This document shows, piece after piece, positions 30,740 through 34,872 of a stretch of DNA of 64,000 bases. The stretch is from contig JANXVY010000073.1 of assembly GCA_025351425.1 (NCBI GenBank), positions 1-64,000 on the forward strand. Reading direction: 5' to 3'. The translations under genes and the position numbers were made by a program. Below the pieces are notes generated by a model. The model ran no database searches and had not been told where the DNA came from. It saw only the letters and a program-made list of their open reading frames with translations. Origin of the DNA: Hyphomicrobium sp. (GTDB taxonomy: Bacteria > Pseudomonadota > Alphaproteobacteria > Rhizobiales > Hyphomicrobiaceae). The number at the start of each line of letters is the position of its first letter. Positions within the stretch are counted from its first letter, which is position 1.

Positions 30740-32071
30740 ATGATGATCGCCCGCCAGTCGCTCCGGTCTGTCCGCACCCTCATGATTGCGTTTGCTGCAT
30801 TGACAGCGCTGGCGTCCGCGCCCGCAAGTGCTTTGGAAGGCACCACGACCCAAGGCCAGATCGCCCCCACCCCCATCGCGGTGCCGGTGTTCGTGAGCGA
30901 CGACCCCAAGCTCGGCGCGGACGTCGCAGGCGTGATCGCAGCTGACCTCGGAAATTCGGGCCTGTTCGCGATCCTCGACCCGGCATCCTATCTCGAAAAG
31001 ATCGCCGATGTGAACGCCCCCCCCAACTTCGTAAACTGGCGCCAGATTCGCGCCGACGGCCTGGTGGTCGGCAAGGTCACGCGCGCGCCCGATGGCCGCC
31101 TGACCTCGGAATTCCGCCTCTGGGACGTGGTCAACGGCAAGCAAAAAGCCGGCCAGCGCTTCACCACTACCGCGCAAAACTGGCGCCGCATCGGCCATCT
31201 GATCGCAGATCAGGTCTATGAACAGCTCACGGGCGAAAAGGGCTATTTCGACACGCGTGTCGTCTACGTCGACGAAACCGGACCCAAGGACCACCGCACG
31301 AAGCGGTTAGCCATCATGGACCAGGACGGCGCACCCAGCTCCATCCGGCTGCTGACCCAGGGCAAGGAGCTGGTGCTGACCCCGCGCTTCAACCCCGTTG
31401 CTCAGGAAATCGCCTTCATGGCCTACCAGGGCGATAAGGTGAAAGTCTACGTGATGAACCTCGAAACCGGCCAGCGCCAGCAGGTCGGCGATTTCCAAGG
31501 CGAGACATTCGCCCCGCGTTTCTCCCCCGACGGCCAGCGCCTGCTGATGAGCGTCTCCGGCGGGGCCGATACCTCGATCTTCGAAGTTGACTTGAAATCG
31601 CGCCAGTCGCGCCGCCTGACGCAGACCGCGGGCCTTGATACCAGCCCCTGCTACGCGCCCGACAGCCGCCAGATCGTATTCGAATCGGACCGCGAAGGCA
31701 CCCAGCAGTTGTATGTCATGAACGCCGACGGCACCGGCGTGCGCCGTCTGTCGACGGGCGATGGCCGTTATTCGACGCCCGTTTGGAGCCCGCGCGGCGA
31801 CTACATCGCTTTTACGAAGCAGCAGGGCGGCCGCTTCCTCATCGGCGTGATGCGCCCGGATGGTACGGGCGAGCGCATCCTGAGCGAAGGCTTCCACGGC
31901 GAAGGCCCCACCTGGGCCCCGAACGGCCGCGTTTTGATGTTCTTCCGCGAGGGCCAGGGCGCCAATGCAGGCCCAGCGATTCGCTCGGTCGACGTGACTG
32001 GTTACAACGAACGCACCATCCCCACGCCAGCCTTCGCCTCTGACCCCGCCTGGTCTCCGCTCCTGAATTGA
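30740..32071 (+). CDS. tolB: TolB, periplasmic beta-propeller of the Tol-Pal system
   Basis: Periplasmic protein that binds Pal and shuttles it during division. The 443 residues start with a signal peptide ([18 protein letters not shown]). The N-terminal TolB_N domain follows ([16 protein letters not shown] onward). Then comes a WD40-like PD40 propeller: [67 protein letters not shown] and [15 protein letters not shown] are the repeated blades. It starts at one of two adjacent ATGs (30740 or 30743), 48 nt after tolA. Confidence 0.95.
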
Positions 32072-32343
32072 GGCGGAACTTTACCGGATATTAACGGTTT
32101 CAGCCCTTAATGTTGACCAAGTTGCCGGTGGTCGGCGACGGCGAATCTTGTATTTTAATCAAGTGCTTCGCCAAGGTGCATCCGCACCCTGGTTAGGCGT
32201 GAGGTGAGCTGATCACGGCGTGTCTTTTTCGCATCAACACGTTCGGAAAACAGAGCATTTCGCCCCTCAGTCCTTGATCAAAACAGGCGGCGCCAGTACC
32301 CCAATATACGGCTAGTGCCGATAAAGCAGCAGGAGACACTACT
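32072..32343. other. Intergenic region between tolB and the twin lipoprotein genes
   Basis: About 270 bases. It holds an imperfect hairpin at 32171-32192 (CCAaGGTGC and GCACCcTGG) that could end the tolB transcript, though no T-run follows. The 15-mer GTGAGGTGAGCTGAT at 32199-32213 recurs at 38180-38194 ahead of the RND pump. A separate promoter for the lipoprotein genes probably lies here. Confidence 0.4.
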
Positions 32344-32475
32344 ATGAAGGGTTACAAGGGGCTGATCGCGATTTCGACGATCATCGCGGCTGTCGCGCTC
32401 GGCGCTTGCCGTAAGGAAGTCGAGCATACGCCGATGAAACTCGGCGCTCCCGTTGCTGAGCAGGTTGCTCGCTAA
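32344..32475 (+). CDS. Tiny lipoprotein 1 of a tandem pair (43 residues)
   Basis: A 43-residue predicted lipoprotein. The signal peptide is MKGYKGLIAISTIIAAVALG, with a lipobox LGAC and Cys22 as the predicted acylated residue. The mature peptide is only 22 residues: CRKEVEHTPMKLGAPVAEQ then VAR. GGAG lies about 10 nt upstream of the ATG at 32344. The gene favours GCT, GTT and CGT codons in its second half, unlike the GC-ending codons of its neighbours; in such genomes that often marks very high expression. A paralogue follows 48 nt downstream. The position, between tolB and pal, suggests envelope duty. I recognise no named family. Confidence 0.8.
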   Translation: MKGYKGLIAISTIIAAVALGACRKEVEHTPMKLGAPVAEQVAR

Positions 32476-32523
32476 GTCCAATTTACGGCTTCCGTTAAAA
32501 TTTAGAACTATGGAGAGAAGATC

Positions 32524-32643
32524 ATGAAGAGCGTTCTCGTTCTCGCTATCGTCGCTGCAGTTGCTCTCGGCGCTTGCCGTCGTGAAGTTGAGCACACCCC
32601 CATGAAGCTCGGCGCTCCGGCTGCTGAGCAGGTTGCTCGCTAA
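32524..32643 (+). CDS. Tiny lipoprotein 2 of a tandem pair (39 residues)
   Basis: Paralogue of the preceding gene. The signal peptide MKSVLVLAIVAAVALGA leads to a lipobox LGAC with Cys18. The mature peptide, CRREVEHTPMKLGAPAAEQ then VAR, differs from copy 1 only by Lys to Arg and Val to Ala. The ATG at 32524 has GGAGAG 7-10 nt upstream. Codons again favour T endings. Nineteen or more of the mature residues are identical, but the signal peptides have diverged, which points to selection on the mature peptide. A hairpin at 32649-32672 follows the stop. Confidence 0.8.
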   Translation: MKSVLVLAIVAAVALGACRREVEHTPMKLGAPAAEQVAR

Positions 32644-32648
32644 CTAAC

Positions 32649-32672
32649 AACCTCCGGCTTCGGCTGGGGTTT
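32649..32672 (+). terminator. Probable terminator of the twin lipoprotein genes
   Basis: AACCTC(C)GGC pairs with GCTGGGGTT around a TTCG tetraloop, a stable hairpin six bases after the stop codon, followed by TTGCTTCT. The T-tract is weak, so the call is moderate. Confidence 0.5.
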
Positions 32673-33702: not shown

Positions 33703-34872
33703 ATGCCAGATTTGCGCGCTTTTTTTCTTGAGAGCTGGGCAGGGCCCCAGTCTTCGGCGCCCAAGTCTTCAGGGTCCAAGTCTTCGGCGCCCAAGTCTTC
33801 GGCGCCCAAGTCTTCGGCGCCCAAGTCTTCGGCGCCCAAGTCTCCGGCACTAAGCAGGCCTTGGGCTTCAGCGTCGGCTAGATACCTCGCCGTGTGCTCG
33901 GCGCTGACGATCGCAGCCCCCCTTCAAGCCCAGACGCCGCCCAGTGCCGCCCCCGCCGCCAAACCGGCCGCAAAGACTGCAGCCGCCAAACCCGGCAAGT
34001 CCGAGCAACCGCCTTCAGGCGGCGGTGACGCGGCGTTGAAGCAGCGCGTCGAAAATCTCGAAGAACAACTCGTCGACATGCAGGTCGTCGTCGGCACGCT
34101 GGAAAGTTTCGCAAAATCGAGCGGCGCCGCCTCCGCGTCTCCGGCCTACCGAGCGGGCGGAGCAAGTGCGGATCCGGCTTCTGGCGCCGGCGTCGATCAG
34201 GCCCGCGTGTCCGGCCTCGAAGCCCAGGTGCGAAGCCTGACGGCACAAGTCCAACAGCTCTCCGAACAGGTCCGCGCCCAGAACGCACCGACCCGCCGTA
34301 TGGACCAAACGCAGGCGGCCCCCGTTGCGCCGCCACCCTCTGCCGCTCAAACCGGGTTCGGCACTGCGACCGTATCGCCAACTAAGGACGACTCGATCGA
34401 CAGCCTCCTGGAACCGCCGTTCCCGGAAGGCTCGCCCGCCAGCGCCGCGCAGCCAACGCAAATGGCAGCCGTCGCTCCCGATGGCGGCAACCCCAAGCAG
34501 CTTTACGAAACCGCCTACGGCTATCTTTTGCAGCAAGACTACGGCGCGGCCGAAGTCGCCTTCGACGATTTCCTGAAACGCTTTCCCAACGATGCGCTCT
34601 CTGGGAACGCCCAGTTCTGGTTGGGAGAATCCTTTTTTGTGCGCGCCCAATATAAGCCTGCCGCCAGCGCCTTCCTGAAGGGCTATCAGACCTACGGCCG
34701 CAGCTCCAAAGCACCCGACAGCCTGTTGAAACTCGCCATGTCGCTCGGGCGGATGGGCCAGAAGGATGCGGCCTGTTCCTCGTTCAACGAACTCGCGACA
34801 CGGTTCCCAGCCGCGTCCACCGACGTCAAATCCCGCACGGCCGTGGAAAAGCAACGTGCAGGTTGCCCGTGA
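33703..34872 (+). CDS. cpoB: CpoB/YbgF, Tol-Pal periplasmic cell-division coordinator
   Basis: Periplasmic protein that couples Tol-Pal to peptidoglycan synthesis. The 389 residues end with a TPR domain that starts around residue 265 (PKQLYETAYGYLLQQDYGAAE, then FWLGESFFVRAQYKPAASAF and ...LKLAMSLGRMGQKDAACSSF). A trimeric coiled-coil precedes it (ALKQRVENLEEQLVDMQVVV and VSGLEAQVRSLTAQVQQLSEQ). The signal peptide-like YLAVCSALTIAAPLQAQ lies at about residues 61-77, after about 60 extra N-terminal residues dominated by SSAPK repeats encoded by 15-bp tandem DNA units. No closer start codon fits except a GTG inside the signal sequence, so the extension is likely real or the start has been altered. 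Confidence 0.85.
   Translation: MPDLRAFFLESWAGPQSSAPKSSGSKSSAPKSSAPKSSAPKSSAPKSPALSRPWASASARYLAVCSALTIAAPLQAQTPPSAAPAAKPAAKTAAAKPGKSEQPPSGGGDAALKQRVENLEEQLVDMQVVVGTLESFAKSSGAASASPAYRAGGASADPASGAGVDQARVSGLEAQVRSLTAQVQQLSEQVRAQNAPTRRMDQTQAAPVAPPPSAAQTGFGTATVSPTKDDSIDSLLEPPFPEGSPASAAQPTQMAAVAPDGGNPKQLYETAYGYLLQQDYGAAEVAFDDFLKRFPNDALSGNAQFWLGESFFVRAQYKPAASAFLKGYQTYGRSSKAPDSLLKLAMSLGRMGQKDAACSSFNELATRFPAASTDVKSRTAVEKQRAGCP
33749..33853 (+). repeat. 15-bp tandem repeat within cpoB, about seven units
   Basis: Units of AGTCTTCGGCGCCCA run head to tail. Units 1 and 3-6 are near-identical, unit 2 is AGTCTTCAGGGTCCA and unit 7 is decayed. They encode the peptide SSAPK. Because 15 is a multiple of three, copy-number changes stay in frame. 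A T7 run lies at 33720-33726, just upstream within the same reading frame. Confidence 0.85.

Follow-up and report, generated by a model that had tools for sequence, protein, structure and literature searches.

Tandem genes for tiny predicted lipoproteins between tolB and pal in Hyphomicrobium and related bacteria

The tolB-pal gap and its signals

In the window, as we call the whole 64,000-nt stretch of Hyphomicrobium sp. DNA that was analysed, reading of the open reading frames (ORFs) revealed two tiny ORFs of 43 aa and 39 aa on the + strand between tolB and pal. The features of the locus are the following:

30740-32071, + strand: tolB, the upstream neighbour, named by its position and by homology among relatives
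32273-32301, + strand: promoter-like element CTTGATC-N17-TACCC upstream of copy 1, conserved in the family upstreams
32309-32320, + strand: short 5' leader hairpin CGGC-TAGT-GCCG, its stem present in many of 62 relatives' upstreams
32331-32336, + strand: Shine-Dalgarno sequence of copy 1, AGGAGA, upstream of the ATG at 32344
32344-32475, + strand: small lipoprotein copy 1, 43 aa, LGAC lipobox, mature peptide CRKEVEHTPMKLGAPVAEQVAR; family members found
32512-32517, + strand: Shine-Dalgarno sequence of copy 2, GGAGAG, upstream of the ATG at 32524
32524-32643, + strand: small lipoprotein copy 2, 39 aa, LGAC lipobox, mature peptide CRREVEHTPMKLGAPAAEQVAR; family members found
32652-32669, + strand: terminator-like stem-loop after copy 2, weak in the window's genome
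33010-33531, + strand: pal, the downstream neighbour, with a Pfam OmpA domain (E 1.8e-22)

This confirmed the description given in an earlier note on this DNA, namely two ORFs with ribosome sites, an LGAC lipobox and near-identical mature peptides of 22 residues. The mature peptides of copies 1 and 2 differ solely by one K/R and one V/A exchange, and the last 21 nt of the two copies are identical. The lipobox pattern [LVI]-x-[AGS]-C takes the form LGAC in the two window copies, as in most of the relatives that were read; the remaining relatives have the variants SAC, AAC, TAC or GGC. The residue after the lipobox Cys in the window copies is Arg, not Asp, and basic residues adjoin the predicted lipid anchor. 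The window peptides end in VAR and other members in R, H, K, E or Q; a C-terminal Lys is not conserved. Elsewhere in the window, a cpoB-like ORF (33703-34872) has an SSAPK repeat run preceding its apparent signal peptide, and its true start may be internal.

The window proteins matched no Pfam family at E ≤ 10, and none exceeded an NCBIfam cut-off. Scans of 18 aligned members gave only weak matches that did not agree with each other (Pfam, best E 0.013; NCBIfam, best E 0.00059; the cut-off itself being checked for the window proteins only), and a PDB profile search returned nothing (best E 0.6). Two sub-threshold Rfam matches on the tolB-pal gap were taken as chance. In the open-licence literature, as covered by titles and the starts of abstracts, no description of these genes was found, which does not prove their absence from print. 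Pal, encoded by the next gene downstream in the same locus, is likewise a lipobox lipoprotein, but it carries an OmpA domain, whereas the lipopeptides have 22 mature residues and are domain-free. Entericidins A and B (ecnAB) are a tandem pair of tiny lipoproteins, and Braun lipoprotein (Lpp) is a 58-residue coiled coil whose C-terminal Lys is bound to peptidoglycan. The analogy with Lpp-type or entericidin-type lipoproteins drawn in the earlier note held for size or layout only. The genes described here share with ecnAB the tandem arrangement, but they have no Pfam match at E ≤ 10 (the entericidin family being presumably PF08085), their sequence and locus are different, and there is no evidence of a toxin-antidote function. 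With Lpp they share the small size and probable abundance of the product, but the peptides have 22 residues without a conserved C-terminal Lys.

Codon choice, scored towards the genome's own ribosomal operon, was 0.101 for copy 1 and 0.195 for copy 2 (p=0.0006 and 0.0002, respectively, against random codons for the same amino acids), compared to -0.07 to 0.02 for the tolQ-cpoB genes, in agreement with the previous observation of a codon choice like that of highly expressed genes and unlike that of the neighbours. Both copies scored above 13 ribosomal or elongation-factor genes (-0.03 to 0.09), which were selected by eye among mechanical ORFs, the background being 39 mechanical ORFs of the window. 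Third-position G+C was 0.70 and 0.56 in the lipopeptide copies compared to 0.71-0.86 in the tol genes. These signs of high expression suggest that the products are abundant.

Of 77 family upstreams, 62 contain the element CTTG-N20-TACCC ahead of the first copy, with 0.1 expected by shuffling, among them those of 55 of the 58 arrays with at least two copies; in most cases a short hairpin and then AGGAG come next. Near versions (such as TAGCC and TACGC) were present in several of the 15 upstreams without the exact element. In carriers from other families, as judged by eye, the first part and GGTA are often kept and CCC is not. The longer form CTTGATC-N17-TACCC has a single exact match in the window's genome, the element itself, and 13 matches with at most one mismatch (12 with one), compared to 8 for a reversed control. 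A simple sigma-70 scan revealed no promoter at 32273-32301; the 17-nt spacing after TTGATC fits a putative sigma-70 type layout, but the second half is unusual. Farther upstream (32226-32251), TTTTCGCATCAA and GGAAAAC form blocks that, by eye, appear conserved in relatives and perhaps constitute a candidate activator site.

The putative leader hairpin has alternative pairs among relatives (CGGC/GCCG, TGGC/GCCA and TTCGGC/GCCGAA) and had a mean stem score of 10.98 versus 7.58 (sd 3.09) in shuffled sequences; it is weak or broken in genera g15 and g2 and in locus L207. At the 3' end, 14 of 18 genera show folding just past the last copy (first 50 nt, genus-mean z ≤ -1.18), with an overall mean z across the 18 genera of -2.15 compared to -0.26 in a control window. 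Among these 18 genera, the stem-loop is absent in the window's genus, Hyphomicrobium (g11) and g9, and barely present in g13. In the window itself, one stem-loop was found after copy 2, compared to 1.2 expected in shuffles, and the first 50 nt gave a z of +0.24.

Occurrence and position of the family

The family was defined by the lipobox, a C-R-[RK]-E...P-[ML]-K-L-G core and the position between tolB and pal, all present in the window copies; the core is relaxed in divergent members of families f10, f16 and f27-f29 and of genus g8. A protein search in 103 genomes of the same family detected relatives in 100 of them at E ≤ 1 and in 97 at E ≤ 1e-4. Matches were weak only (0.36-0.60) in G004, G028 and G091, and none was obtained in G058, G089 and G093, three genomes that are 54-73% complete. 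Homologues were thus found where the earlier note had pointed, in relatives and in their tolB-pal gaps. An order-wide profile search of 397 genomes yielded matches at E ≤ 0.01 in 59, 26 of them from the same family; none of the misses listed was a same-family genome, and there were 318 more misses beyond those. Outside the own family, clear profile scores were obtained in f8, f16, f23, f27-f30, f36 and f43, and a divergent candidate in f10 was visible only on reading its tolB-pal gap. As judged from these sequences, relatives are present in about ten other families of the order. Order-wide matches at E 0.002-0.008 in f11, f20, f21, f25 and f32 are probably chance matches.

A class-wide sample of 387 genomes returned only the window's genome and one match with an internal stop, taken as chance. 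Among named records, the core pattern was present in 52 stretches under Hyphomicrobium, Filomicrobium (including F. insigne), Hyphomicrobiaceae, Methyloligella and Rhodomicrobium, also under unplaced Hyphomicrobiales, Rhizobiales or Alphaproteobacteria, and in a few cases under other submitter names (Devosia, Hyphomonadaceae, Bradyrhizobiaceae). The DNA pattern of the lipopeptide genes was not found in viral contigs. In divergent members from f28 (L142, L143 and L171), His clusters (GHH, HGHH, HHH) lie just after the lipidated Cys, perhaps for metal or pH sensing, or for contact with a different partner surface.

The order tolB-member(s)-pal on a single strand was found in 93 of the 93 pieces holding all three, with one copy in 21, two in 70 and three in 2, as counted with a search expression liable to overlook divergent copies. 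This expression missed the divergent g8 members and gave one false ORF each in L055 and L192, both removed by a later core filter; by the same expression, one of 110 loci (L115) had no member and was dropped from the counts. The side agreed in 16 of 16 pieces with just one of the neighbour genes. Locus pieces overlap because many genomes sit in both collections.

Gaps between tolB and pal were read in 59 pieces from 44 families, 11 of which (L165-L175) had been chosen for earlier search matches, and a member was present in 19, including that of the window; three of the 59 rows have no TolB and seven no Pal on the piece. Member-bearing gaps span 591-1748 nt (18 measured), and 29 of the 31 measured member-free gaps 63-275 nt. 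Two long gaps, in L132 (f19) and L137 (f25), held no member in 733 and 1033 nt, respectively, and in the remaining nine memberless rows TolB or Pal is absent from the piece. The statement that this gap normally holds no such genes was therefore borne out for most families sampled, but a whole clade carries them.

In a quick, unrooted TolB tree of 54 rows, 33 of whose 51 inner branches lack SH-aLRT support, a starred branch (SH-aLRT 95) separated 32 of the 33 non-carriers from the carriers, and the carrier state changed twice compared to a shuffled mean of 17 changes. Six non-carrier rows (f12, f17, f31, f32, f39 and f46) have pal off the piece, so that their label means no member within 1.5 kb of tolB. 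The exception was G128, which has no member in a 191-nt gap and belongs to the same genus as the carrier G224; the family member therefore seems dispensable there. The simplest history would be one gain and one loss, and a gain before the split followed by loss in the other branch would also be compatible with this unrooted tree. A TolB match at E ≤ 1e-60 was missing in 4 of 159 genomes, three of them (G129, G169 and G199) from genus g52 of f28, in which TolB may have been lost or have strongly diverged.

Members were also detected outside the tol locus. In six of six third-copy loci retrieved from Hyphomicrobium (g11) (L176, L177, L178, L179, L182 and L183), the third member is convergent with a TonB-like gene. 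One of four scanned TonB-like proteins exceeded the Pfam cut-off for TonB_C, three were below it, and the other two proteins are alike by eye. The one pair compared, the window's TolA and a Hyphomicrobium TonB-like protein, had no meaningful similarity. The window's genome encodes a distant homologue of the TonB-like protein (C23, E 5e-10), beside which no family member was seen in 3.8 kb. Extra-tol members in L180, L181 and L243 have other neighbours, which in L181 include a transglycosylase-domain gene.

Selection and agreement between copies

Within genera, dN/dS calculated from equal-length ungapped pairs only was 0.05-0.25 in 19 of 23 genus-by-copy rows, and 0, 0.32, 0.45 and 0.50 in the other four, with one pair each. 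Conservation at the protein level, set as a test beforehand, was thus found, and by this measure the members are under purifying selection. The copies were compared in 58 arrays with at least two copies from 18 genera, leaving out single-copy arrays. Genus g21, in which both copies have the same signal peptide and the whole protein is identical, was excluded from the distance and permutation test, which used 17 genera.

The amino-acid difference of the core was 5.9% between copies within a genome compared to 19-20% between genera, and core identity within genomes was 0.941 versus 0.807 when permuted between genera, and none of 10000 permutations reached the observed value. Signal peptides differed by 34% between copies of one genome and by 29-39% between genera (identity 0.658 versus 0.615 permuted, with 0.5% of permutations as high). 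The silent core difference, at codons for the same amino acid, was 0.409 within a genome, and between genera 0.426 for copy 1 against copy 1, 0.340 for copy 2 against copy 2 and 0.419 for copy 1 against copy 2. New here is the agreement of cores within genomes without convergence of silent sites, which favours a shared constraint over recent gene conversion. Our reading is that a shared constraint would act on all copies, most simply through one partner surface. Most core changes follow the tree. Against this reading, 248 non-independent tallies of core changes within genera comprised 177 in a single copy, 47 that were identical in the two copies and 24 that hit both copies differently, and 25 disjoint within-genus pairs gave 7.1 changes alike compared to 4.4 expected overlaps of any kind.

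Possible roles of the lipopeptides

We favour, tentatively, the reading that these genes encode outer-membrane lipopeptides that are abundant and share a single partner, probably within Tol-Pal or at its junction with peptidoglycan; the two copies probably share one cell-envelope job. The lipidated Cys would anchor peptides of ~22 residues in the outer membrane, the destination predicted from Arg rather than Asp at +2, where both would do the same molecular job, and several gene copies would raise the dosage. If both copies touch one partner surface, a change in the shared partner would select the same change in every copy. The place of the genes, together with the third copy beside a TonB-like gene in Hyphomicrobium, suggests that the partner is most likely a Tol-Pal protein of the periplasm or outer membrane (TolB, Pal) or the junction between peptidoglycan and outer membrane that this system serves, and the peptide would adjust Pal/TolB traffic or outer-membrane tethering. 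The Tol system of E. coli is described as mobilising Pal, which is then recaptured where the cell divides, with TolA dissociating TolB-Pal (PMC10666116). A short peptide touching TolB or Pal could tune such a cycle of mobilisation and recapture. The TolB-binding epitope of colicin E9 is a short disordered peptide that binds TolB at Pal's site and illustrates, as an analogy only, a conceivable mode of action for a short peptide on TolB. Tuning of Tol-Pal is suggested by the fixed position and the co-varying cores, and membership in the system by synteny only. Genes often remain together by inertia, which counts against a Tol-Pal role, and with a separate promoter the lipopeptides need not act with TolB or Pal. 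Further points against it are the member-free gap of G128, the TonB_C cut-off being exceeded by just one of four scanned TonB-like proteins, the lack of similarity between TolA and the TonB-like protein in the pair compared, and the different neighbours of the extra-tol members in L180, L181 and L243.

It is possible, if doubtful, that they are instead general abundant lipopeptides of the outer membrane, structural or charge-modulating in an Lpp-like role and not acting on Tol-Pal. The promoter-like element of their own, the several gene copies, the codon scores exceeding those found for 13 genes of ribosomal proteins or elongation factors and the basic residues beside the lipid anchor would suit such a role. 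However, the genes are fixed at one place across the clade, the peptides have 22 residues and no conserved C-terminal Lys, and the cores vary yet agree within a genome, an agreement that would not be required of a generic surface coat.

Concerted evolution by short-tract gene conversion, and not selection by a partner, might also keep the copies alike, and would account for cores far more alike within a genome than orthologues are between genera, for the identical last 21 nt of the window copies and for the same whole protein in both g21 copies. G012 and G063 each carry one new codon in identical form in the two copies, a pattern in its favour that does not separate conversion from parallel change. 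This explanation seems quite unlikely, since the silent sites of the core resemble each other within a genome no more than they do between genera, the median core dS between copies is 0.96 (11 of 58 pairs being saturated or undefined), and the signal peptides adjoining the core stay different. Moreover, some parallel changes retained copy-specific third bases, as in GTA/GTT of G095 versus GCA/GCT of G096, and in GTG/GTT of G036 versus GCG/GCT of G033 and G039. In genus g11, copy 1 encodes Leu mostly by TTG and copy 2 by CTG or CTT. In any case, old gene conversion with later silent drift could explain part of the signal between genera.

A role as a small lipoprotein chaperone or translocon subunit in outer-membrane protein assembly, like that of LptM (YifL), appears very improbable. 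Small lipoproteins can act by substrate mimicry, as described for LptM on LptD (PMC10567701), and LptM resembles the lipopeptides in being a small lipoprotein, but the LptM profile (NF047847, cut-off 27.7 bits) matched copy 2 with 9.8 bits over the signal peptide only and did not match copy 1, and a separate, better candidate lies elsewhere in the genome (C39, 23.9 bits, below the cut-off too). That the ORFs are spurious or neutral remnants, as their shortness and the lack of matches in the Pfam and NCBIfam libraries might suggest, is already contradicted by their conservation in 97 of 103 same-family genomes, by dN/dS well below 1 and by the conserved start signals, promoter-like element and synteny.

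The favoured reading, that of a partner shared in or near Tol-Pal, has a more specific form that we regard as speculative and somewhat unlikely, in which the family would be a clade-specific extra component of Tol-Pal: multi-copy lipopeptides whose core would dock on TolB, Pal or the junction and set Pal release and capture, with cores tracking the partner so that the copies change in parallel. The protein composition of Tol-Pal is usually regarded as fixed, and several bacteria of the carrier clade bud or grow from the pole. One clade appears to have added, and has almost always kept, a tiny multi-copy lipopeptide unnamed in Pfam and NCBIfam. The agreement between copies makes the question of its binding partner testable with two peptides and a few candidate proteins, and the case illustrates a way of recognising function in genes as short as these.
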